The notes beneath the pieces are model-generated. The model searched no databases. It saw nothing but the letters and a program-made list of their open reading frames with translations, and had not been told where the DNA came from. Source: Hymenopellis radicata (taxonomy: Eukaryota; Basidiomycota; Agaricomycetes; Agaricales; Physalacriaceae). Taken from it: a stretch of 64,000 nucleotides of DNA. The stretch lies in the NCBI GenBank assembly GCA_015501595.1, contig JADNRX010000216.1, forward strand, positions 1 to 64,000, given 5' to 3'. This document shows positions 5,084 through 52,504 of the stretch, piece by piece. Position numbers and translations under genes: made by a program. Numbering within the stretch: position 1 is the stretch's first letter; the number at the start of each line of letters is the position of its first letter.

Positions 5084-6356
5084 TCAAGATGGGAGGGGAG
5101 GGTTATTCCCAGTGAAAAAGCCGTTCAGGTGTGTCCAGGTATCGACGGAATTGACAAGGCAACGGTGAAACCCGTCGATGCCTAGTCTCACCTGGATAAA
5201 AACGCAAGTTTTCGCACCGTCATTTCAGGAATCGCAAGCTTTTCGTGCTATATTCTCACGGTTAGTGGCAAATCCTGGGCCTGGGCAAACCACAGCGGTT
5301 CTGCTTGCAGGCTGCTATTCGTGCTTGCTTTTGGCGACACTCAACCATAGAAATGAAATAAAACACTTGTATTCCTCTACTAGTACTGTGGATAGAATGG
5401 TATCCGAGTGTGTTATGCTACAAAATGAAAGCCCTCAAGCCCATCCCATCCCATACCCGTGCATCCCATTGGCAGTGACATTCCAACACCACACAGCGCG
5501 AATAAATACAGCCCAGATACGAGGGGGGGCGATAGACGACGTCGCAGTGCCCGCGCGCGCGACTTGCGTCCTGGAGCGGCGTTGACGATGTCCTATGTCA
5601 TTCCTGGATGAGTGTTAGCGATGTACTTGGCTCATAACGAGACACGCACCTTATACCAGAGTGGCCGCGGCCGCGACAAGTCGGTCGTACTTGCAGTCAA
5701 GTCATCCACGTCAAATTTTGGGGCAGCGCGCGCGCTGCGGAAACGCTGGTCGACAACATCTGGTCCATGTCTAGACATCTATTAACAGGGCTTGCTTGAA
5801 TGCCACATCCGCGACGTACCAATAGGCGGAGAGCATTCGAGTGAATACGAGAGCGTGTAGAGGAGGGAGGCGGGCGCCGACAAGGTGAGGGAAGGGAACA
5901 AAGTGCGAAGTTGATGACAAAAGAATTATATTCAAAAATCGTACGACATAGAAGCCCCTAGCGGGCATGGGACTGAGCGAAACGCGCGAAACCCTGACCA
6001 AAAAAACCACTCAAGTGATGGCAAGGGAGAAAAAGACCTTGAAAATTTGGTAGAATGCGAAAGAGATGAAGAGATGGTAAGAGCGGGTGGACCCAGGTAT
6101 CACCCTGCTGATCCTGTCGATATCTGGACACACCGGAACGGCTTTTTCACTGGGGGTTATTGCTGGGCTCGTGCAAATTCGAATTCGAATTTGATGTACA
6201 ACGGGAGGAGTGCCAGGAGGACTTCAGGGTCGGAACGTAACCTTACCAACCGTTCAGAAGGAAAGTTCTTATCTTACTTCGATCCGCTGAGGTCTCTATA
6301 TAAGAGCGCGCGAATAACGCCTATGAACATCGACTGTCCACGAGCCCTTGCAAGCA
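5084..6356. other. Intergenic stretch, no gene seen
   Basis: No ORF with recognisable features. A TATA-like TATATAAG at 6297-6304 lies about 55 bp upstream of the GST start codon and is a plausible promoter element for that gene. Confidence 0.45.
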
Positions 6357-23643: not shown

Positions 23644-25509
23644 TATCTCTGTCGTCCACAGGTCGTCTTAAACGCCCTGCCTTTGTATCAGGTCCTCTCA
23701 TGTTTATTGTTGACTATAGCATCCCGTTTGCACACGTGCGCCCATTGTTGAAAATTTCCTGAAATGGACGACAATAACGCTTTCAACAATCGACAAAGTA
23801 GCCAGCCACATGACACTCACCATCTCTTCATTCAACAACAACCATTCAGTGAGTGACCACGAGTCTGTGCGTCTAAGATCTCCTCTTCTAACTTGTTGCA
23901 TCAGGAACTTTCACAACACTCCAGATACTTCCGGAGCACTATGTCTATTTCGACTCAAACCAGTGAGGTCCAGCGAATAGCACGAACCGTTCCCGAGGCC
24001 GTTCAACCCCTCGTCCAATCAAATGATATCCCCACCCAGCTTCAGCTCAACACCATACATGCATGGAAAAAGTCCCTAGACGCAGCTCTGGCGAGTCTAC
24101 CGGATGCAGACACCCAAACTACGCAGCGGAGAAGTGTCGCTGTCGCTGCGCATCGTCGTCTTTACCGCTCTTTCTGCTCCGCCATCCGACGTCTCCCGGT
24201 AGAGGTCTTGCAAGCGATCTTCCTGGAATTAGGCAGCGACCTGGATGCCGACTCAAACACGCGGGGCTACGACGTGTTCAACGTTAATGCCGGACCGTGG
24301 CCGCTCATCTGCGTCTCTAGGCTCTGGCGCGCCGCGGCGTTGGGCTGCCCCGAGCTATGGGCAACCATCTCGGTGGAAAGCCATGCTGAAGATGTCACAA
24401 GGACGCGCCACAAGAGGCCAAGGAACCATATCGCGCTCTTGAAAGTGCTATTCAACAGCGGCCAGCGCGACATCGGGCTCTTGAGAGCGGCGCTAGTCAA
24501 CAGCGGCCAGCGCGACTTGTACATTCGCTTCATGGACCGTAGCAGCAATGCGCGCACTCTCCTCCACGTGCTCGTGGAGCACTGTAATCGGTGGAGAGAA
24601 GTGTATCTCTACATGAGTACTATGGATGCCTCTGAGCTCTCCTCGGACCTCGGGAGGCGCATGGAACGGCTGAAGGCCCTAACCTACTGGACACACGGAC
24701 CGACATTTACTGGACATCCACGCCGCCAATTAGTGCGTTCCACGAAGCGCCTAGTCTTGTCGAGCTGTGCGTGGCCGGGCAGTGTCTGCACGCGGATGGT
24801 GTCACGCTTCCCCAGGTTATCAAGGTGAAATACTGCCACGCTGATTCCGTGGTTCATCGCCTTGATGCCTTTTCTCTATGCCCAAATGCCGAGGATGTGA
24901 GTCTCGATCCGGGAACACTCCCCTACGGCGACGAGTGGACTCCACTGCTCGTTGATATCGAGGACTGCATACGACGGGATCGCATCACTCGGTTCGAGAC
25001 TTCCGACGTGGGCCTTCTGTACCACCTGTGTCTCCCATCTCTCTCCGACCTTTCCATATTCTTCACAGACGCAGTGAACTTGGAGCTCATTTCAAGGCCT
25101 ACTCTTGTTTCCCCTGCGCCCCTTCCTGCCTAGTCTCTTTAAACAGACGCTATATACACGATCGATTTTTGTAATGTGAGGTTGATCGATGTGTATAGAG
25201 TCTGTCGATTAAGGTGGGGTCTGTACAGCGATTGGCGTTATTACATAAGTTGGCTTAATTGGGCAACGCGCATTTTGCTTCTACCCTCGTCAGATCCTCG
25301 TCCGCGCTATCTGTTCTGGCCCCGGTGTCATACGTGCCTGCGCCGTACCAGGATGTGTCACCACTGATGTTCGCGCCCAGATGGACGCGAATACTCTTTT
25401 CGCATTTCCTTGTTAACGCAGCAACAGTGGCACCCAGCGTCAAGTACTGGTCCGCGTATTGCTAAAAGTGCCGCCCGTCGACGTCGCTCGGCTTCCAAGA
25501 GAGAGCCCC

Positions 25510-37519: not shown

Positions 37520-39224
37520 TCAAATGAAGACAGTACCTTCCGTGAAGAACTCCACCACCTGCTTCACAATTGAAACATTAAATCCAGCATTCTTGATAGT
37601 GCGCAGGTGAGCAACATCATCGTCAGACAAATTGGGAAGCCGTGATTGGGGATGGATCGTGAAGGAGACCGACTCCATACCAGTCCGCACACGAATCATG
37701 TCCACGATGGACGCATCCATAAAGCGCCAGGGATCTTTAAGATTCGACCTGAACGCGAAGGATTGGAGATTCGGAACAAGGCGTGGACGCGAAAGCTCGT
37801 TGGAAGCTCTGTCGGCCAAGCGATGAAGTAGGACGTTCAGAGCTTCGTCCGACGACGTGGCAAGCCCTGACTCCACCGCCTCATCTGACGATGCGACAAA
37901 CTCTCCCTCCAGTATGAGGAAGCCGCCGTAGCCGTTGATGTTGATGGAAAGGTTCTGTAGACCAGGAACGACTTGTAGGATTTCTGGCATCGAACCTATT
38001 GAGAGTTCACAGTTGTGAATGGTCAAGGACAACAGTGGGCATTGGGAAACGTGCAGGAATTGGGAAATGATCGGTAATGAGGGGTCTAGTAATTCATCGA
38101 GGGTTTCAATTTGCCCAGCTTCGAGATGTTGGAGATTGGGAAGGGTGAACAGGTTGAGCTGAGTGCACTGTTGGAGGCGCAACGTGCTCAGATGTGAATG
38201 AAGGTACCGAGTTTTGGAGTCGTCATTGGGAATGACTGTCCTGGAACGATCTGCCAGGTAGGTGAGCTTGGGTGATGACATCAAAACCCTGAATGCGGCT
38301 GGTGTAACTGAATCTGAGGTAAACGATTTGAGTTGAGAACCATCGAGCTTGAAAACAGCACAGCTTATTTTCGCCTTTGTTAAAGAAGGAGCAATCTCGA
38401 AAGGACCGCCTTCAATGTGATCGTCCTGGCCCAAAAGCCAGTGTGCAAAAAATTCGAGTTCCTCCAACTTCGGCAGCCTCCCACGAAGAGCCGACATCGA
38501 TTGAGTAAACGCGCGCGCCGTGCAGGTAAACGAGGCGTACTGCCACCGCTCTGAGTGCTGTACGAGCTCGTCAAGGATAAGGCGACCGAGGTAAATGCTC
38601 TCGCGAGTCTCATTCCAGATGAAATGGAATCGCAGTGGTAGCGAGCGAGAGCGCTCAAGCACATCTCTTAACAAGGATAGGCCCCCTTGACCTATACGCG
38701 TAAGTCGTAGGCCTGTCCACAGATGAGGATCCTGCGCAGCCATGCGCCATTTTTGGCAAACGCGACGGATTCTCCAAAGCGAATCCGTCGGATCACGAAC
38801 GTTAAGCCACGTATAATCAGGTTCACCCGATTGCGCTAAAGTGTATAGGAATATTTCCTGTAGGATCTCGAGGGGCAGACGACGAAGAGGTGAGAGAGCA
38901 CCGGAGATGTGCTGCTGGCGCTCTTTTAGAAGTCGTCGCTCATTGTCGAGCATTGTTTTTCTGAGATCGAGCGCTTTCGGGAGTTTCTCCTGCATAGCAG
39001 ACAGAGCAGCTATCTCGGTATCGAGACGTGCGAGGTAGGGATCAATGGAAAGCCCGTACTCGCGCAACATGGGCATGTCGGAAGCGGCCGGAGGCTCATT
39101 GGAGAGGATATGTGCTTTCACAGCATCAGGTAGTTCTGGCGTATACGTTGAGCAATGTGGCGCCTATACAAAGACGAAGATTAGAGAATTGGCAAAGACT
39201 CATAATGCTAGCAGCCCGCACCAT
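37520..39224 (-). CDS. F-box-like protein, paralog copy 3 (intact)
   Basis: The only unbroken one of three close copies; 548 aa. The first coding exon is just ATG (39224-39222), followed by a 58-nt intron (39221-39164) and an exon starting APHCSTYTPELPDAVKAHIL. It lacks the TCCCQST insert of copies 1 and 2. Coiled coil at about residues 30-85 (DTEIAALSAMQEKLPKALDL), F-box LPLEILQEIFLYTLAQSG at about 98-115, then RVCQKWRMAAQDPHLWTGLR and LRR-like repeats (RLPKLEELEFF, LPNLQHLEAG, LLSLTIHNCELSIGSMPEI, VPGLQNLSININ). The end is SIVKQVVEFFTEGTVFI. Probably an SCF substrate receptor; target unknown. A divergent LVRxWH copy B starts about 550 bp upstream. Confidence 0.87.
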
Positions 39225-40904: not shown

Positions 40905-41106
40905 CAAGAATGAATGAAACATTGCCACGGACAACTTTGTCGTATCATGCTCTCAGACGTGCATCTCCTCACTGGTCTTTCTGCCGAAATTCGAGCCTGC
41001 CATCGACTTAATCCGAGCCTGAGGGTCAAATTAGCATACAGTCCGCCTACGCTGTATGGTTTCATTGAGTTCAAGGGATTTATCTATCGCACTGCAGTTC
41101 CCGGGT
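40905..41106. repeat. Direct repeat downstream of LVRxWH copies B and C
   Basis: About 200 bp here match 56412-56612 downstream of copy C with scattered differences (for example CCTACGCTGTATGGTTTCAT in both). With the shared upstream DNA, this shows the duplication unit extended well past the coding region. The homology stops close to the LTR element's insertion point at 41124. Confidence 0.7.
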
Positions 41107-41128
41107 CGCGAGTGGAACGGAAGGGCGG

Positions 41129-41561
41129 TGTGAATCGCGCGTCCGATTCCACCCAGTTCTAGGACCTCTCCGCTTGGAGGATACGGGGTATGACCTGTCG
41201 GAAGGTCGCGTAGCCGAGGAGCGGCGTATCAGCGCGTGAGACGCGGCGTGTCGGCGCATGGAAATGGTCGTAATAGTCGTTAGGTAGCAGATTGTAACCC
41301 ATATGCTGTAGGAAGCGTTTGACCCGCGCTCGGGGAGCCGTTACACGGGTGCTCAGCGGGCCTGGCGTGACGGTTATCGGTATACAATCGTGAAGGGACT
41401 TAAGCCATCGACGGGAACAAGACGGGAGAGAGACAGACGAAACAGACTGGAGGCAACGACAATGATAATTCTAACTGAGGTACTATGATACCAACAGACA
41501 CGTATATGGAATGGCTTAGTAAGCTACCTTCCCACGATTCCGATACTTCCTCCGTATCACA
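41129..41561 (-). repeat. Left LTR (3' LTR of the element)
   Basis: 433 bp with TG...CA ends, identical by eye to 51543-51975. Next to it inside the element is a purine-rich run on the minus strand (complement of 41562-41572), as expected upstream of a 3' LTR. Confidence 0.9.
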
Positions 41562-43439
41562 GTGCCCCCCAATCGTGGTAAGGGAGGTTCAAACAGCCTG
41601 GGTGAACTGATATGAAGACTTGCATTAAAATCTGACCTTCAGAGCCTAGAAATCTTGCGAAAATTTTGAGCAGCTTGATTCCAAAATCAAGATGCTCAAA
41701 CTCTCGTCCAATAGAGCACCTGAACTGGGCGAGTCGACTCGTTTGCTATACTGATACACCGCTTCTCGATGCTCGCCAGTAGTGATCGAGTGACTCCTGA
41801 TGAACCGTCACTCCTTCAAGATCCTCTGACTCTCATCAATAGCCTGTCCGTGGCAGTATGACAATGGCTCTCTTCGTTCGCCATGTTACGCCCTACTAGT
41901 GGTAACAGCCCGCGTGGTGATGCCATCGGACCGTGATCCAGGCTGCACTTGCTGACCTCGTGTAGCCTATGACTCGCTGCGCGCGCCATCTGTGTCCGTG
42001 GCAAGATATTGATGGCTCTCTGTGTTCGCCACATTAAGCCCTTCGGGTAGTAACAACTCGCGTGCTGATGCCAATGGACAGTGATCCAGGCTACACTTGC
42101 CGACCTCGTATAGGATGACTCGCTGTGCATGCCATCCTTGGTACCTAGTACCCCCTACAGCCCCCCAAATTAGAAGTGAATTCGCTGCATCAATGCATGC
42201 ACGGATTTGCTTCTGATTTCCAAAACCTAGCCCCAAAGAACAACGGCCCCCCAGACTGAGACAATGCACGTACGCCATCATGCGGGAAGAAGAAAAAAAA
42301 AAATGGAGCAAATTCTAGGCGAGTCTTCTAACTGACATGCGTGCTTCGATAGCGGAGCTACAAGCTCAACACTAATAATACTGCAGGAGAGCTAAAGCTC
42401 GATCCATGCGGTGTCAGCCTTTGAACACTCGCCCCCCAGACCAGACGAGACCACAACTGTAGTCTTTGCAGTCCTGAACAATCAACGTAGATAACTCTCG
42501 TTCCGACTGGTAGTGATTACGACTCCGAGTCGATCTTGAAGCCAAAGCTGGTCGCACATAGACAAATCCGATTCCAAATAATGGCGGCGCTGGTAACGGT
42601 TTGGAGCAGAGCAGAGGAGCTATGAGCTCAACAGCGCAATGCACAAGAGAGCTACAAGCTTCATCTCCGCAAAATTTCTGATCTTGTATCGGTATGCAGC
42701 CAGTGGATCGTGTGATACGTATCCCGCCGTAGAATCTCGTACTAGTCGCGCCGTCACGGAAAGGAGTGGTGCTGTTGAATAAGAACATGCACAATTGCCT
42801 AGACTCTCCATCCGCGAGTGAATTCTTAAATCCAAAACCTCCCAAACGATCCAAGGTGCGGAATTTGCTTCCGTGGGACTTTCTGCGGTTGGATCCGCGC
42901 TAAGTCCGACACACCTCTTTTTCAAACCGTCACCTTTCCCGACCGGGGTAGGGACGAGTTCTACTGGACTCTTCTTAATGAATGGCTGGCTTTGAGCCGC
43001 CACTGGACCTGACTGGCTCTGAGCTAGCGAGATCGTTTGGCTCCATGCCGGCGAGACTGGTGTCGTCTGGCTTCGTGTTGGCGAACGGGTGTTGGCGAAC
43101 GGGAATTTGCCTGTGCGCGAGCCACAGCAAGAGCAGGATTGGCTGCGGCGGGGTCCGTATGGGGCTGAGCCGAGTCATAGAATGCGTAGCCCGAGGTCTG
43201 GTGTGGCTGCAGCGGCGGACTCGAGTCGTGGAGCGATTGCGACTCAGTTTTAGTGTCAGATTCAGCGTCGGGTCGCCCTCCGTTCGTTCTTGTGGTCCTC
43301 GCAGAATGAACTGGTTCTTCATCGGATGTGCAAAGGTGTTTTCTATTCCTGTAGATTCATCACTGATGTCTGTATCTTGTCGGGGACCTCCGTGCCAACT
43401 AATAAGAGTGTGGTGACACCAAACTTTTCAAGTGAGTCA

Positions 43440-43860
43440 TTATCTTTTGGCTCGTGGGCGTGAATCCTGGACAGCGCGTCCGCGAGTATGTTGTCCGTGC
43501 CGCGAACATGTTCGACTTTTGAAATCAGACATACCGAGCTTCTCGATCCAAAGGGTGATAAGTCTTTTGAGACAAGAGGTAACTTCTAGTTGGTGATCCA
43601 AGTAAAGCTCAGGCCTTGCAGGATACCTCGATAAGACGCATCGTCGTTTCCACACCAGCAAGCATTCGACTTCCTGAACTGGGTAATTCTGCTGCGCGGC
43701 CGCCGCGGCGTTCAACTTCGCCGTGGATACTGTATGGCGCGCCTCGAGCTGGTAGCGGTTGTCGCGCTGGTCGGTCATGTATGCTGACAGAATCGAGACC
43801 GGCTTTCAAGACGGGCGGACGGATGTGGACATGTTGCGCGTAGATATCTGAAGGGACCAT
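43440..43860 (-). pseudogene. Ty3/gypsy RNase H remnant
   Basis: On the minus strand, AQQNYPVQEVE, then in another frame SRMLAGVETTMRLIEV, later WIEKLGMSDFK and, after one extra base, VEHVRGTDNILADALSRIHA can be read. These are the ordered hallmarks of the RNase H domain and connection of Ty3/gypsy pol. At least two frameshifts. No reverse transcriptase or integrase could be followed on either side. Confidence 0.78.
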
Positions 43861-45739
43861 ACTTTGCTACTATTCAGTTCGTAGGTGACAAATTAGGTGG
43901 TGTCTTCTGTAAACTTTTGACGAATCGAGCTATACAGCTTTAGGCGCGCGTGCGTAACCGGAAGCAGGTTGAGTAAGACATGTAGGATAGGACATGTGAG
44001 TATCCTCGTAGTCGAATCATTGGATTCCCATTGGCTTGTTAACACGGCTGAAGCAGCGATTAACGATAATGGGTGAACGAGGCTTGAAAGCCTGCACTTG
44101 GTATTCGATTTGACATGGCACTGAGACGAGACTCAACAGGGACTTGGATGAGTGGGATGGCCAAGCAAAGATGTCCGACAGAAAGTAGAAGAAGCTCGGT
44201 GTAGGACTCCGAAGCAGCAGATAGCAATGATGCAGATTCAAGTCAGACCATTGAGACGTGTGATGGTGGCGGGACAAGGTTTGGATGTCGAATAGTGATT
44301 GCGTCACTTCCCCGTACACCTGGAGATCAACGGGAGAGCTACAAGCTACATCCCGTCTGTGGCGCGAGAGCTACAAGCTGCATCGTGCTAGGATCAAGAG
44401 AGCTAAAGCTCGATCTTGTTTGGAGGCCTTCTCAAGTACGAGTATTTTGAAGAAATCCGCTAGGTCCAGTCAACATCCGTACATCGCGACGAGCCGAGTG
44501 GTCTTGGGAAGCAACTTGACAGCAGTAACATTACGGATCTTCTGCTCTCTAAAGACATAAGAGAGCTACAACTTGCGACGATGCGTGGAGAATGCAATGA
44601 CGAGTCGAACCCCGGACGAAGCGCCGTTCATACTTGATGTGTCGTCTCCAATCTGGAGGAACGACAAGGAATTGGACGATGAGCCAAATAGTCTTGGTGT
44701 AAGATTTTGAATCAGCGGCGGGCAGCGCGAAATTAAAACGACGACGTCGCGCTCGTAGTGCCGCCCGACTCGTGCATATGTGCAGATCATAGAGGCGCAA
44801 CCCTTGAGCCGCCGAACAGCCATCACATCAGAGGTTGTTTGACCAGCACGAGCTCTAGAGAGATGAATGGCCTTGTAAAACAAGACACCAGCAACGTCAC
44901 GGATGTTCTGCCTTCTGAAGACATAGGAGAGCTATAAGCTTCATCCAGCTGTGAAAATCGGAGAAGAGCAGAGAAGCTGAGGGCTTCGACTTGTCGGTAC
45001 CAGCGAGAGAGCTAGAAGCTTCATCTCGCTCGAGATACAGGAGCTGAAAGCTCATTGTGCCAAATCAAGAGAGCTAGAGCTCAATCTTGCTGGATCATAT
45101 CAGAGCTGAAGCTTCATTCCTCGGAATTTTGACAAGGACATGTAAGTGGTTCGTGGCCAAAGACACATCCCGTCAAATGTCCAACGGAATGGCGATACAG
45201 AGAGGTCGCGACGGCAGCGAGGAAGATCTGTACATCGGTGAAGGTCTGTACATCGGAGAAGGTCGTTCGAGTCCCTAGTGGTACGGTATCAAGTCCATGA
45301 CAGTGACTTCCTCAGGATCCGATTCGTCGCCTGGCAACGTGAGCTCTTTCGTGATGAGACGATGCCGGTGGGAAGAAACAAGTCCAGTTTGCCTTCGGTC
45401 CAGGAATAGATGTCGGGAACGATGCCAGCACAGACACCGGAGTGTAGGTAACCTTGTGGGATAGGTGACTTGGCGTGTACAAACTTGTTGTGGACAATCG
45501 TAGTAATGTTCCATAGGAGCACTCTTTCCGTCCTTCTTCTTCCGCAGCTCCTTTGCCCCTTGTTCTTCATTACGCCTACGAAAACGCTCCTTCTTGACGA
45601 TAGTGCGAACAAAGGTGGGAAGAGGCTGTCACCATCTCCTCAATTTCTTCGTCGCCGTAAGAGTAGTAGGCCATGAGAGGCGGACCAACATCGAGTGCAG
45701 AGTCGGAATGTCGATCGTACTGGCATATCCGAGTCGTTT

Positions 45740-45885
45740 GGAAGAGGTGCGAAGTACGCTGCATTGGGCAGCCAGGGAAGTTGTGATGGCAGAGATATTT
45801 GATGCGCCATCGACAACAAGGAAAGTGATTGAAAGGATTGGGAGCTTGAGAGCGGTCCCTTCCAACATTGCGAGACGGCGGGCAT
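45740..45885 (-). pseudogene. Possible retropepsin remnant
   Basis: The minus strand reads LPILSITFLVVDGASNISAI, resembling the strand and D-(S/T/G)-G-A active-site loop of Ty3/gypsy proteases, with the motif altered to VDGAS. The frame is soon lost. Position and strand agree with the RNase H remnant at 43440-43860. Confidence 0.45.
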
Positions 45886-46830
45886 CGAGGATGAGTCGGA
45901 CGGTGGCGCAGATTCACAAGGTCGAATATGGCGAGGCCGCCGAGAGCAGGTGTTTGGGAGCCGGTTTGAAAGGAAAAACCCTTAGGTACGACCACTAGTC
46001 ACGCCGAAGAGGGGACGAGAACAACAGCATCGATTCAGACAGTATATAAAAGTCTGCCCTCAAGAGCCAAACCGTCAGCAGAAGAAGCGCTGCAAAGCGT
46101 GGCGTGGGCCCGTGGTCTGTAGTTCGTACGGAACGATGACGGCTCGAAGACAGCCAGTGAGTACGAGTCAGAGTAGAGAGACGAGGCTCGAAGCTGTCAT
46201 TGAGTGATGAATGATCATGTTGCTTCATGTGTGCCGAAAAAGGGTGAGAGAGCTATAAGCTTCATCTCGTCGAAGTCATCCATCCTATCCGTGGCACGAG
46301 AGCTACAAGCTTCATCGTGCTAGGCTCAAGAGAGCTAAAGCTCAATCTTGATTGGATGTACTTATCCGAGCAGCCATAAGCAGCTTGCGAGGCGCGTCAT
46401 GGGTACAGACAGATTCATCGTGGTAGCGCGTCCGAGTCTAGAACGACAGTGATCATGAGACGAAGCTGTGTGGGACGTCCGCCGGAAGGAAAGAGTCTTG
46501 GTCTGGACTTCGAGTTGTTATGGGCAACTGGTAGCGCGAGTCGCCACGACGGGTGCACATCTTCTATTTAGAAAATGGACAGAACACCAAGTCTAAACCA
46601 ATGCGGGATACTTCCACGTCAACCCGTCGACCAGCTAGTATCTCCAGTAGTCCTGTCCTCGCCGCACTAGCATTGTAGTTGCCGAAGTCTTGGCGCCCCA
46701 GACAGCTTTTTCGAACTGTTGATGAGGTGGATTTCGATAAACCTCTTCTGGTCTTGAAAGGACGTCGTTGAGATCGATGTCGCGAGCACAGCAATCGCAG
46801 ATCACGACAATGTGACCCGAGTCGTCAGAT

Positions 46831-49680
46831 GCGCCAAATTCTTGATCCTAAGAGCATCGATGCCAGCGTCAACATTCAAGGCGGAAAGTCACGAAGCCTG
46901 AGTCTGTAATGCGTAGATAAGACTTGCAAGGGAAATAAGACTCCGGGTACTGAAGCATCGGTACGAGAGGCGACGATGACGGACGAAAGGGGAAGAGCCA
47001 GGAAGGGTGAGCTTGCAGTGCGAGAAATGGAATTTTGGAATGAAGAATTTCACTGCCCCGCGCTGGAGCACCCCTTGCGCCCCCCAGACCAGCACTGACC
47101 GTGTACTGTGGTGGTCTTAAGAGCGGGTGCTCGGCATTGAACATGGTCCTATCTTCATGAAGACCTCCATCATTGATTATCTTCAAGAACCTCGACGAAT
47201 GTCAGAGCGGCGCGCAATCGTAGTTCAGACGATGGAGTAGACTGTCAAGATAATCGTCGACGTTGTCGTACGTCACTGGAAATTCCTCGGACGGCGACCA
47301 GCTCCTTGTCCAAAGAGTATTGATGCCGGTGTACTATGGTACTGATCCATTGTGGCAGCGCGTTAGAAGCAGCATTGGCAGAAGGCTAATGGTGAGGCCA
47401 GACGTGAGACAAGACTGGAAATATGCCTTGGGATCAGCGAATAAACAACCCGTCGTTGATGCGAGTATCCTCGTGGTCAAATCGTTGATGATGTCGATTC
47501 CCATTGACTACTGTAAGCGAGAGAACTGGCGTCTGAGTACGCTTACATTGCAACAATGGTTGCCAGGCAGTCAGCTTTTGAATAGTCGGCCTTTGAATAG
47601 CCAGCGTTGAGCCCCGCGAAGTCCCAAGTTGACATCTGATTCGTAGCGAGCACGGCGGGGGTGGCGGGTTGAATGCGAGAGGACGCGAGAGGGCTGTGCG
47701 ACGTTCAAGAGCGTGGTTAAAATGCCATCCATGCGTTCCAGGGCGTCGGCGCGCGTTGAGTTCGAAATCCAAGCTTGACGGTGGTAGTTGGAGGCAGGGT
47801 TCGATAACACTGATGTGAAAACCATCCTGATCGCGAAAAACATGGTAAGAGCAACGTGGGTGGCAGAGATGGATGAGAGTGGCGGGAGAGCTAGAGCTCA
47901 TCTCGTTAACCACATGCCTCGAATTGTTGATGGAGCGGATGCTAGTAACCCACTAGTCTTGAAGGTCGCCATTGAGATTGCTGTCGCAAATCCTTGATTC
48001 CAGGAGCGTTGATGACGGTAAACCCACAAATTCTTGATCCCAAGAACCAGCGTCAAGATTCGTAGAGTCGGCGCGGCACATCAGGCCGTCAGATGCTGTA
48101 TCGAAGCGCCTCACGCCGAGGAGAGCAACTTCCAAGTCCATAACATTGCCTAATCCAGAAGTGCTTGACTTGAATGGAATGGAAAGGTCGATGACTCGGA
48201 TGAGGATGCTCGAGCTGCCGAGATATTACCCTTGTTAATCACGTAGAGGCGCCAGTAGTCCGAAAGCCAATGTGACTCGAGTTGGTCCCGTGGAACGCTG
48301 TCGACGCAGTAACGATTCGGGAGACGTTAGGGGCAGTAACGCAGGCGCAGGTGGCATGGTAACCTCGATAACTCGTTGGATGTCATCAGTGTGAAGAGGA
48401 ATCATCGACATGAATGTAACGGTGTAAGTCGTGACGGCAGGACAAAGTGAGGGAGATGAGTCCAATCCAAGACTCAGGTACGAGTCGCATCTGAGGTTAG
48501 ACTCAGGCAAGCCCTAAGAGATGGATAGCATAATCGAGAATACACAGAAGATGTCGGCGACGCCGGATTCTCAATCCTGGAGGAGATTCAATAGTGGCGA
48601 GAGAGCTAAAAGCTCCATCCCGCGGGCCGTGGCACGAGAGCTACAAGCTACATCGTGCTAAGCCAAACAAAATTCCAAGAAACTGAGTCCGGAACGGCAG
48701 TGAGACGAAACTGGACACACGTCGGCCATGTAAGGTAGGAGAGAGCTAGAGCTCATCTCACAGAGCGCTAACGCTGATCTTTTAGGAATGCAACAAAGTA
48801 GCTTCTTGGGAGAGCGATGTCGCATTGAAGAGTAATGTCCACATGCTCCAAAAGTGCCGAAAACGGTCGTATATACATTACACGTCGCGGATTGTTGATG
48901 ATTCGTTAGATCCCAAAGGTGTGCGTCGAGCGGTAGGATCCAAATTGTTGCAGTACCGAAGTTGTCAGGCATCAACGATTCACGAAAGTTCCTGAGAATG
49001 TTGACGACGGTAAACCCGCTGGCCCTCGTCCTATCAGTCCTCGAGAAGGCGACAACCACGGTGATGCGCCAAGTGCTTGGTCCTAAGAGCCAGCGTCAAT
49101 ACAAGGACCGGACATCTTGAGCCGTGGAACGAATCCAATTGGAGAGCTTGGTAAGGAGAGCTAGAGCTACATCCTTACACCTCACGCGGAGGGGAGAGCA
49201 CCTTGTTTTATCGGAGAAAACATTCCAAACATCAGATCCAAAGCCTTAAGTCGAATGCGCCATACTACCCCACACTACATCAACTGTTCAAGTAGTCGAG
49301 TACTCGGCGCGTAAGCGTTGCGGTCGTCGAAGTTGTTGCACATCAGAGAAACATTTGAAAAGAGCCAAAACCTTGATCCTGATAGCGGCGTCAACACTCG
49401 TCAAGTTAGGATGTCAGACACAGTGTTGAAGAAAGTCTGATGCCAAGGACCGAAATCTTGAGCAGCAGAACGAATCCAACTGGGACGTAAGTCGCGATGA
49501 CAGTGGATCAAGGCAATAGAGGGGGCCTGGTGAACGAGTCCAGGTTGACGCCCGCCGCGGGCTTGATTAATCGTTCCAAATCTTGTTAAATCCCGGATAT
49601 GCGTCTAGCTGAAAGTTACACTCGCGCCGACCACGATGACGCGCCAAATCCTTAAGTCTAAACCGTGCTGATGTCAACGT
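46831..49680. repeat. Second dispersed repeat family in the LTR element
   Basis: A degenerate unit of about 35 bp, roughly GCGCCAAATCCTTGATCCTA followed by AGAGCCAGCGTCAA, occurs near 46831, 47986, 48026, 49066, 49362 and 49641. GATGACGGTAAACCC recurs near some copies (48010, 49007). The interior therefore looks assembled from repeated modules. No coding meaning could be fixed. Confidence 0.55.
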
Positions 49681-51523
49681 GAGGATCCATAGTGGAAGTG
49701 CGTCAAAAATGGTGTTTGTAGGACGATGTCAAGTTGACGCTAACGACAGGTAGTACCATTACGAGTCGCGATGATGGTTCAAGCGGGACTCAATGGTAGT
49801 CGGACAGGTCCAGGATTAGAAGGGTCTGATGCAAGATGCCGGTCACCACAATAATCGCCCGAGACTAGAAGGCTGTGATCCGGTGAGGACAATAGGATGG
49901 GACTCAAGGGGTACGCGCGTCGGGAGCAGAAGTAATCACTGTCAATGTTCTGACAACAGCGTCACCAAACGCAAGAATGCCACCAGAAGGCAAGACTTCG
50001 AGTCGATCCCGGCAGCGAGTATCGCAGCAATTATCAGACGCAGTGAGTGTGAGTGGATGAGCCTGTGCTGCTTGAAGCGAGGATGTCGCTTGACGTGACT
50101 CCATTGGTACGCAAGTCAAGGTTATCCAAGTCGTCGGTCGAAGACCGGAAACGGACCGAGCTGTACAAGGCGGAAAGGCGGCAAGAACAATCTAACAGGT
50201 CGACGTCCGATGTTGACGTGCAGATCGCGATGGAGGCCACACGATGCTTGTCAGCAGAGTGAGTACGAATCTAATCTCAAGAATCGAATGACGGGTGGAA
50301 GCACTGCATATTGTCTTACACGGCACGCGGAAAGAGTAACCCGGTCTATTGAGAATGCAGCAATTGCGTAGTACCGTGATGATGTGTCTACTCGACAAGC
50401 CGAATGGTGTAGCGACTCGAAGGATATAACAACACGCGTCGGAAGCGAAAGAATATAAATGTTCTGTCGGCAGCGTGGCCAGTGAACACAAAGATGCCAC
50501 CGGGAGGCTAGACTTCCAGTCAATACCGGCGGCAGCAATTATTGGATAAGTCATAACTATGAGTCGGAGACTTGCTGTCCAAGTAGTCGGGCGCGAAGCG
50601 CATCGTCAAGGCCCCAGGTGCCACTTAATCCAGCTGGTAATGGCGGTGTTGGATTGACGCCGTGAGCGGTACAAAATGTCGCACCGACAATGATGGGACA
50701 GCTTGAAGCACGACACCGCCCAACGGTGAGACTGTAGGTTGACAACGACGCGGGTAGCACGAGTGGTTGATGATGGTCGTAAGAAATGAGTCGGGGATTC
50801 GAAGATGATGCGGGCAGTGAGAGTCTAGAGACCACGAGCCCATCCTGGCCGTGGGTACGTGAATGCGAATGCCAACGGCGCCGGACAGCTGAGGCCCACG
50901 GTGAAATTGTGCGAGAGCCCAAGCATCAAATGCAAGGATGCAGAAAGACTCTGAGTCGACGGCGGCGATGGATAATGACAGCGTTAAACGCGCTGAAGCA
51001 GCAAAATCGTAGGAGCCAGGAATGTGAGATGCATGTCATATCAAAGAGAGGAGCCGGTGGAAGACCTCGGATGTAGTTACTGGGAAGTGATGCTTGGATA
51101 AAGCCTGAAGGGCGACGGCGTGGAGCAAATGAGGATGCCGGCGGGGCACGAAAGCTTGATGAAAGTCCCGGAACTAACGTGTAAACGCAGGTCAAGTTGA
51201 GGCCGCGGCGGATACGCTCGATGGTACAGACGTAGAGTGAACGCGGTACGAACATGGGAGCGACACGCTCGACCATGCAAGTATACGAGAGAGCTAGAGC
51301 TTCATCTCGTAACATGTGGGCATGAGAGCTACAAGCTCAACCATGCAAGGTGGGAGAGAGCTACAAGCTTCATCTCCAAGAGAGTGGGAGAGAGCTACAA
51401 GCTTCATCTCCAAGAGAGCTAGAGCTCATCTTTTAAGAGCGCAAGGGAACTGGAAGCTCCACGATGCGAATGCCGAGAGCTAGCAGCTCAACCGGACTTG
51501 GTATCCTCCGGGAAGCGGTGAAG

Positions 51524-51541
51524 TCCTGGGTGTCCCCACCA
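51524..51541 (-). other. Putative primer-binding site
   Basis: One base inside the right LTR, the minus strand reads TGGTGGGGACACCCAGGA. TGG matches the CCA end of a tRNA and the rest would be the acceptor 3' strand. The tRNA identity was not determined. Confidence 0.5.
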
Positions 51542-51542
51542 C

Positions 51543-51975
51543 TGTGAATCGCGCGTCCGATTCCACCCAGTTCTAGGACCTCTCCGCTTGGAGGATACGG
51601 GGTATGACCTGTCGGAAGGTCGCGTAGCCGAGGAGCGGCGTATCAGCGCGTGAGACGCGGCGTGTCGGCGCATGGAAATGGTCGTAATAGTCGTTAGGTA
51701 GCAGATTGTAACCCATATGCTGTAGGAAGCGTTTGACCCGCGCTCGGGGAGCCGTTACACGGGTGCTCAGCGGGCCTGGCGTGACGGTTATCGGTATACA
51801 ATCGTGAAGGGACTTAAGCCATCGACGGGAACAAGACGGGAGAGAGACAGACGAAACAGACTGGAGGCAACGACAATGATAATTCTAACTGAGGTACTAT
51901 GATACCAACAGACACGTATATGGAATGGCTTAGTAAGCTACCTTCCCACGATTCCGATACTTCCTCCGTATCACA
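51543..51975 (-). repeat. Right LTR (5' LTR of the element)
   Basis: 433 bp, identical by eye to the left LTR. Followed by the GGCGG target duplication at 51976-51980. The element's transcript would start in this LTR on the minus strand. Confidence 0.9.
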
Positions 51976-52504
51976 GGCGGGATGTCCTGACTATGCTTGT
52001 TCTCCATTGGCGTGTCAGCGTCAACACACTCCTCCTCCTCTTCAAGCTCCTGGTCATCTCCCGATGGCTCCCATCTGTGAGCAGCAAGCTCTGCATGCCA
52101 GGGGCGGACAACGATTTCAGGCAGTCCACTAAACTTCTGGCAGGTTTCCTTCACATCCTGAAAGCGGCGAGTGCCAAATGCAGAGTCCCCGAGTAAACAA
52201 GGAGGCGCTGTCCTTCGTCAACGTACACAGCGTCCCAACCATCCTTAGCTAGCGAGGATAATCTATCAGTTCTCTGTGGTTTCTCGGAAGCCATGTGAGC
52301 TCGTCCGACTCCCGCGCGCGTAGCGATAAGCATGAACTCGGCTTCACAGAACATCTGGTCTTTGCCGGGGCCAGAAAGGAAACTGATTGAAAATCGACGC
52401 GCAAGGCTGTTTCTAAGGCGATGTTGGGAAGCTCGAAGAAGCCAGTATGGCGGCTGACGCCGGGTTTTACTTGTAGAGGAACTTGAAGTGCGGGTGGCGG
52501 GCAT
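51950..52504 (-). pseudogene. LVRxWH-family protein, copy E (frame break; LTR element in its 3' end)
   Basis: Start MPATRTSSSSTSKTRRQPPY at 52504, then FSISFLSGPGKDQMFCEAEF, YVDEGQRLLVYSGTLHLALA and, after a frame break near 52162 that reads as one missing base in a T-run, CQKFSGLPEIVVRPWHAELA, the family signature. An acidic segment (GDDQELEEEEECVDADTP) follows. The 10.8-kb LTR element is inserted just beyond ENKHSQDIP, so the present last codons come from LTR sequence (stop near 51933). A distant family member, most like D in its signature. Confidence 0.65.

Follow-up and report, generated by a model that had tools for sequence, protein, structure and literature searches.

Covarying hairpins as putative RNA recognition elements in gene-less and gene-bearing LTR retrotransposons of Hymenopellis radicata

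Why should a retrotransposon that encodes no protein carry some two dozen small hairpins along its whole length? To our knowledge, the choice of RNA by autonomous long terminal repeat (LTR) retrotransposons and the mobility of gene-less elements are both poorly understood. We analyzed a 64,000-nucleotide stretch of the basidiomycete H. radicata (GenBank assembly GCA_015501595.1, contig JADNRX010000216.1, positions 1 to 64,000 of the forward strand; hereafter the window), in which an original prediction, made from the plus strand, had described more than 20 hairpins with a common core and covarying arms inside a retrotransposon. The window contains 24 such hairpins (class A), all within an LTR retrotransposon. 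New relative to that prediction are the minus sense strand of the element, a second hairpin class (class B) in related elements, and the presence of hairpins in coding linkers of gene-bearing relatives. With moderate confidence, and on sequence evidence, we propose that the hairpins act in cis as RNA recognition elements within one LTR-retrotransposon lineage, where a protein supplied by the autonomous partner would read them for packaging.

The locus at 41129-51975 is a young, non-autonomous LTR retrotransposon without genes of its own, so the predicted location inside a retrotransposon holds. Its LTRs (41129-41561 and 51543-51975) are 433 bp long with TG...CA termini, and the compared intervals 41129-41562 and 51543-51976 are identical over 434 bases, including one shared flanking base. 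The 5-bp target site duplication GGCGG lies on both outer sides (41124-41128 and 51976-51980), which together with the identical LTRs indicates a recent insertion. On the minus strand, a primer-binding site (GTGGTGGGGACACCCAGGACTTC, 51520-51542) directly follows one LTR and a polypurine tract (GGGGGGCAC, 41562-41570) directly precedes the other. The letters of the primer-binding site recur in the element C225, downstream of its LTR start, and GGGGGGCAC also stands before TGTGATA in C113. C686 and C707, two elements with related LTRs, have long open reading frames (ORFs) that run antiparallel to the LTR orientation of the window plus strand. The placement of both priming sites and the direction of these ORFs identify the minus strand as the sense strand, with the 5′ LTR at 51543-51975 and the 3′ LTR, which reads TG...CA on the plus strand, at 41129-41561. 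No stop-to-stop frame of at least 200 amino acids lies between 41129 and 51976, leaving no gag-pol coding capacity, while LTRs, target site duplication, primer-binding site and polypurine tract are all present, as in a non-autonomous LTR retrotransposon. LARD-type non-autonomous elements likewise have intact LTRs, both priming sites and a long non-coding interior without genes; unlike them, the window element holds a repeated structured motif in its interior. Additional copies of the polypurine core occur within the element, as CCCCCC on the plus strand (sense GGGGGG) at 42161, 42247, 42432 and 47080. Three of these four sit in sense TCTGGGGGG or similar, and they are possibly extra plus-strand priming sites.

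A class A hairpin reads in sense roughly arm-UNG-AGCU-NNU-AGCU-C-arm′. The core GAGCTNNNAGCT occurs 22 times in the window over both strands (16 plus, 6 minus), against 0.56 expected and at most 4 in 100 shuffles, and every match lies within 42355-51489. When the spacer was allowed to vary from 1 to 3 nt and an A had to follow the core, 26 cores were found on the plus strand of the window and none on the minus strand. A covariance model of class A (R1; hits counted at E up to 1) recovered the 24 hairpins, two of them weak, in agreement with the more than 20 copies predicted. A generic bulged-hairpin counter returned 11 on the window sense strand (shuffled mean 3.5, largest of eight shuffles 7) and 7 on the reverse (antisense) strand of C224 (2.9, largest 5); the remaining stretches tested fell within the shuffled range.

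These hairpins are under selection for structure. The hairpin-bearing loci contain 266 cores, reduced to 181 distinct ones, of which 77 have at least five contiguous arm pairs; when the 3′ arms were dealt to other hairpins, the mean was 24.7 and the largest of 1000 shuffles 37, so that arm complementarity is clearly better than in shuffled sequence. Covariation was scored on 40 sequences with more than three pairwise differences, picked by core, 3-nt loop and register A and not by pairing (a first MAFFT alignment, A1, opened no loop gaps and was set aside). The score was 0.416 compared with 0.158 ± 0.018 in shuffled sets (0/500) and at most 0.137 in slid versions, and 88.5% of the cells were paired versus 75.6% after shuffling. 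Pairs changed on both sides numbered six in this set, not above the 5.5 of the shuffles. Between copies of 19 window hairpins, 333 of 357 paired arm cells were unchanged, five (three distinct events) were double changes that kept Watson-Crick pairing, and 19 had changed otherwise. The compensatory arm change of the original prediction is upheld by the arm-pair counts and the covariation score. In colinear alignments of the window element with ten copies, hairpin sites were covered at 0.42-0.67 and distant sites at 0.09-0.16 in C463, C794, C88, C1079 and C712; matches between different hairpins could inflate the hairpin-site figures.

In plus-strand order, the 24 hairpins, all on the minus strand, lie at 42347-42377 (R1 33.3 bits), 42381-42410 (18.4), 42609-42639 (23.9), 42641-42671 (32.2), 44328-44358 (arms ACGGGA/TCCCGT; 37.8), 44360-44390 (36.8), 44392-44421 (2-nt spacer; 25.8), 44921-44951 (29.6), 45001-45031 (AGCGAGA/TCTCGCT; 40.4), 45033-45062 (weak; 14.7), 45063-45092 (28.3), 46242-46272 (33.7), 46292-46322 (GCACGA/TCGTGC; 40.9), 46324-46353 (TCAAGA/TCTTGA; 27.8), 47880-47908 (weak; 12.6, E 0.4), 48595-48625 (36.1), 48630-48660 (40.1) and 49150-49179 (GTAAGGA/TCCTTAC; 23.3). 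Towards the 5′ LTR follow 51250-51280 (19.6), a leader cluster at 51283-51312 (TACGAGA/TCTCGTA; 28.4), 51318-51348 (GCATG/CATGC; 34.2), 51350-51380 and the identical 51384-51414 (35.3 each), and 51469-51499 (26.3), the first hairpin after the primer-binding site in the sense direction. All seven arm pairs that had been quoted are present; the 3-nt spacer given for them is wrong for TCAAGA, GTAAGGA and TACGAGA, each of which has 2 nt. The first hairpin begins at 42347, slightly ahead of the span of 42383 to 51500 given for the family. An AGCG/CGCT core variant reported at 48769 is legible in the letters and is not among the R1 hits; a better variant of the core, GAGCG/CGCTC, changed on both sides, is legible at 51250-51280.

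Some copies are recent duplicates: those at 51350 and 51384 are identical, and 76 nt at 44349 and 46281 agree at 89%. Tandem multiplication of one 34-bp hairpin unit is seen at C712:9872-9994 (four copies) and window 51350-51417 (two copies), and is a visible route of hairpin multiplication. Such near-identical units are what a self-inserting micro-palindrome, as the original prediction had also suggested, or functionless duplication of a few units would produce, and we give this explanation scarcely any credence. The 181 distinct cores fall into 46 arm clusters under a greedy rule, so the family does not trace to few recent units. Its covariation and its near-restriction to LTR elements (74 of 78 class A and 95 of 98 class B genome matches lie in LTR elements or loci; empty sites were not searched) refute it as the main explanation.

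Within this genome, the hairpins are nearly restricted to one LTR lineage. R1 gave 262 hits in 28 sources, of which 261 are in the sense orientation of the element, the exception being L019:690-713 (E 0.28). Thirteen class A loci including the window (twelve related) each have 0-2 cores on the other strand and no frame longer than 339 amino acids in the stretches fetched. The four class A genome matches outside LTR-bearing loci are 3-mismatch matches at C158:18318 and in C446, C777 and C996. The pattern GAGCTN{2,3}AGCTNCA is not specific genome-wide (223 matches versus 212 for the reversed control), and the narrower GTGTAGCTNNTAGCTC gives 8 versus 1. Among class A spacings of up to 60 nt in 11 elements, 63 of 85 are within 30-36 nt, and gene-less elements fetched carry about 8 to 27 hairpins each. 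Class A hairpins also occur in a short relative (L028, C774:210514-214856), whose roughly 4.4 kb amount to under half of the usual length. Near-identical hairpin hit lists in L010 (C463) and L014 (C794), and likewise in L012 (C567) and L018 (C1162), suggest either duplication of a region or an assembly in which both haplotypes are represented. Nine frames taken from C225, C113, C1157, C224 and C774 were scanned against Pfam, with no match.

Class A is common to gene-less and gene-bearing elements, and its presence in gene-bearing relatives supports the original prediction by its own check: it is carried by the gene-bearing C113, C464, C593 and C1225. The reverse transcriptase (RT) of C113 is 83% identical to that of C686, and its class A hairpins lie in the protease-RT and ribonuclease H (RNase H)-integrase linkers, where the protein does not align with C686. 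Class A cores are present in C464 and C593 (in C593 identified by core), and C1225 has a long Gag-protease frame, no RT match and seven class A cores in 5.5 kb (again identified by core). A 174-nt stretch of the C113 pol linker that includes a hairpin is repeated at 86% identity (L040:471-644 and 5142-5315), the repeats flanking about 4.5 kb of other sequence. Related elements without hairpins were sampled through C741 only (72% RT identity), in 7 kb of which there is no repeated core of either class; AGCT..AGCT and GCTCATAGC occur there once each, the latter lacking the class B flanks.

The LTR-related C686 and C707, with long ORFs, gave no R1 hit, but their linkers hold the class B form, in sense arm-GGC-N-GCU-NAU-AGC-GCC-arm′, with paired flanks. 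The pattern GGCNGCTNATAGCGCC has 98 matches in the 75.5-Mb genome (reversed control 1): 24 in C158, 19 in C224, 18 in C824, 17 each in C686 and C707, and three elsewhere. All 95 matches in these five related LTR elements are in sense orientation. At least six contiguous arm pairs occur in 38 of the 95 distinct apex matches (shuffled arms: mean 6.4, at most 14). The covariation score was 0.265 versus 0.088 (0/500), with slid versions up to 0.149 (n=49, chosen by apex only); one of five measures, further pair types, did not exceed the shuffles. Among spacings up to 60 nt, 18 of 45 are exactly 36 nt. C158, C224 and C824 have no frame longer than 266 amino acids in the stretches fetched, and over about 250 bp their LTRs share about 82% identity with that of C686; class B, too, thus joins gene-less and gene-bearing elements. 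At least 120 stretches of viral contigs contain the class B core, with one match each in the 80 listed, which we take as chance.

C686 encodes matches to RT, RNase H, integrase zinc-binding, SH3 and chromodomain families, with one CCHC knuckle in ORF1, and where compared the hairpins of gene-bearing elements sit in variable linkers. It could be argued that AAxSA or xAxSS linker repeats, for instance for protease cleavage or as spacers, only resemble hairpins, given that the 18 class B hairpins in the C686 coding sequence all fall in a single reading frame and that those compared lie between conserved domains. We consider this highly improbable. For the window element, which has no ORF of at least 200 amino acids, it is largely refuted; class B also occurs before ORF1 and between ORFs, and arms outside the motif covary. 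AAxSA, searched in proteins and not in DNA, occurs 34 times, with 18 occurrences in the long frames of C686 and 16 in those of the closely related C707, and in all 34 the codons are GCN-GCT-NNT-AGC-GCC/T. The second alanine is always GCT and the serine always AGC, against a C686 background of 74/279 alanine codons for GCT and 45/313 serine codons for AGC. The freely varying third base, that of the first alanine, is the bulge position, and the last alanine codon departs from GCC, to GCT, in just four cases, all of them with GGA as the preceding codon, so that the pair is kept. The coding linkers are therefore constrained at the nucleotide level, and in those of C686 the constraint on the RNA may be joined by a preference for small residues in the protein. 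One hairpin of the three in C464 lies in a different frame; this copy is degenerate, so the case is not decisive.

Downstream of pol lie two accessory ORFs, with matches in C686, C707, C113, C464, C593, C913, C93, C607 and C1051 (a fragment), and not in C741, C12, C1 or C14. They encode 266 and 674 amino acids in C686 (L033:2988-6018) and form one 1023-amino-acid frame in C593 (L163). In both elements an arginine-serine-rich stretch lies between two conserved parts, and a Pfam scan of the two C686 frames gave no match. Their proteins are candidate readers of the hairpins beside Gag.

Which strand folds? Leader hairpins lie just downstream of the 5′ LTR in the window, C225, C686 and C158, and this position and the fixed orientation fit genomic RNA. 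At internal arm positions, G·U exceeds A·C in sense by 25:9 (class A 8:2, class B 17:7), or 25:4 on a less independent set, and the contiguous outer stem of class A is longer in sense by 14:5. The sense RNA is thus likely, if weakly supported, to be the folded form. As strand choice is unsettled and a fixed orientation also suits first-strand cDNA, the hairpins could instead act as single-stranded DNA or cruciform sites in reverse transcription or integration; the leader position, which suits RNA signals, and the mild G·U excess make this improbable. At the level of RNA, the cores are self-complementary, such that any two hairpins could open and pair with each other in dimerisation or condensation of the genomic RNA. 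A core common to copies whose arms differ would allow such pairing in trans, and the hairpins are closely spaced. Self-complementarity, however, holds for every hairpin and is not specific evidence, and pairing alone leaves unexplained the loop U that most copies keep; we regard RNA-RNA contacts as rather improbable.

If a protein reads the top of a hairpin, bulge and apex should be conserved while the stem sequence is free to vary, and this is the pattern of the present hairpins. In phage MS2, the motif is a 5′ bulge and an apical loop, the rest of the sequence being variable (PMC6281560). Together with the leader clusters, the element-wide copies, their regular spacing and their sharing with gene-bearing elements, this pattern points first to packaging by the Gag protein of the partner, and packaging or protein binding, among the roles originally suggested, fits best. 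In the proposed mechanism, a transcript would be made from the sense (window minus) strand and each hairpin would fold into a variable outer stem and a short, conserved upper stem, with a bulge on the 5′ side that is about U-N in class A and a single base in class B, and with a small loop, mostly ending in U. The reader, most likely the Gag nucleocapsid and otherwise the lineage-specific accessory protein encoded after pol, would contact bulge and apex, with only pairing needed in the outer stem. By binding many copies, in the leader and in closely spaced dispersed sets, the protein would gather the RNA for packaging and reverse transcription, and the gene-less window element could persist by showing the tag. 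The genome would then contain two recognition codes, class A and class B.

The same covariation applies if a host or element protein reads the hairpins for another step, such as nuclear export, control of translation or stability, or escape from silencing. Dispersal over both coding and non-coding sequence would be in keeping with general ribonucleoprotein formation, and the accessory protein has its arginine-serine-rich stretch. We think this unlikely, since the occurrence of two different hairpin classes in related lineages within a single genome favours an element-encoded, coevolving reader over a host factor, and leader clusters after the 5′ LTR indicate use of the genomic RNA.

Several observations weigh against packaging by a partner's protein, or against parts of the evidence for it. 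The LTR of the window is no closer to those of C225 and C113 (69 bp) than to that of C686 (82 bp), and the accessory-ORF carriers C93 and C1051 were left out of the hairpin examination. Hairpin-site coverage is modest in C519, C567, C818 and C1138 (0.20-0.33 versus 0.08-0.13) and not raised in C1351 (0.08 and 0.08). With regard to the folded strand, distinct changes between copies give a G·U to A·C ratio of 4:6, folding energy does not differ between strands, and in class B the sense strand has the longer outer stem in 18 cases, the antisense strand in 23. The single reading frame of the C686 hairpins, mentioned above, belongs here as well; TAG blocks one of the three frames, but by our reading a second frame has no stop, so a role at the protein level is conceivable. 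Among 120 of 769 matched pol relatives, AAxSA is encoded twice only in P0009, and in those 120 it is no commoner (4) than the reversed ASxAA (4). One of nine Gag relatives has a single AAxSA. As these 120 Pol and nine Gag relatives from other sources, P0009 excepted, lack repeated encoded motifs, the hairpin system may be young, or other motifs may be used elsewhere. Named pol relatives are from Agrocybe, Mycena and other Agaricomycetes, in keeping with an agaric genome, and one protein matches a Mucidula mucida record at 100% identity over 37% of the query.

Outside the element, F-box-like matches were found at window 37523-39163 (minus strand) and 23857-24825 (plus strand), the second under the Pfam cut-off.

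Retroviral psi and Ty leader domains for packaging and dimerisation are few and mostly confined to the 5′ region. The hairpins of the present element also occur directly downstream of the 5′ LTR in what would be the genomic RNA, as do such leader domains (Ty1 TIPIRT, PMC5454406); unlike them, they number about 20 copies along the whole window element. Fungal GalEa Copia elements have a single Conserved Hairpin Site abutting the 5′ LTR and no primer-binding site (PMC5445492). The likeness is a conserved hairpin beside the 5′ LTR in a fungal LTR retrotransposon. We rejected that site as an identification because the window element has a primer-binding site and many hairpins and the integrase of its gene-bearing relatives has SH3_Tf2-1 and chromodomain matches. 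Retrozymes, with hammerhead ribozymes, are comparable as gene-less LTR-related elements with a small RNA fold (PMC4918200). An Rfam scan of 41000-52100 at E up to 5 gave two matches, both far under the gathering score and neither a ribozyme; with no family at threshold there, a retrozyme or known Rfam ribozyme fold was rejected. Closest in arrangement to the hairpins are the multiple dispersed packaging signals of single-stranded RNA viruses, described for MS2 and the hepatitis B pregenome (PMC6281560, PMC7612645). Both consist of many genome-wide stem-loops with a small common motif, identified here from sequence and covariation. The present hairpins differ in belonging to mushroom LTR retrotransposons, in their stricter core and covarying arms, in a set common to gene-bearing and gene-less elements, and in two classes per genome, and binding by Gag would be the putative counterpart of coat protein binding. 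In the titles and abstract openings searched, which leave most subscription papers outside, there was no report of dispersed hairpins in LTR retrotransposons.

Tentatively, we suggest a dispersed-packaging-signal system with two matched codes in one fungal genome, in which RNA hairpins, hidden by synonymous codons in the linkers of autonomous elements, could serve as an entry ticket for gene-less elements, with code and reader coevolving. A candidate tag is visible as about twenty covarying repeats per element, and its two versions in one genome provide natural swaps for specificity. If this proposal is true, the idea of dispersed packaging signals would reach from RNA viruses to retrotransposons, and the RNA motif would be a handle for finding gene-less partners.

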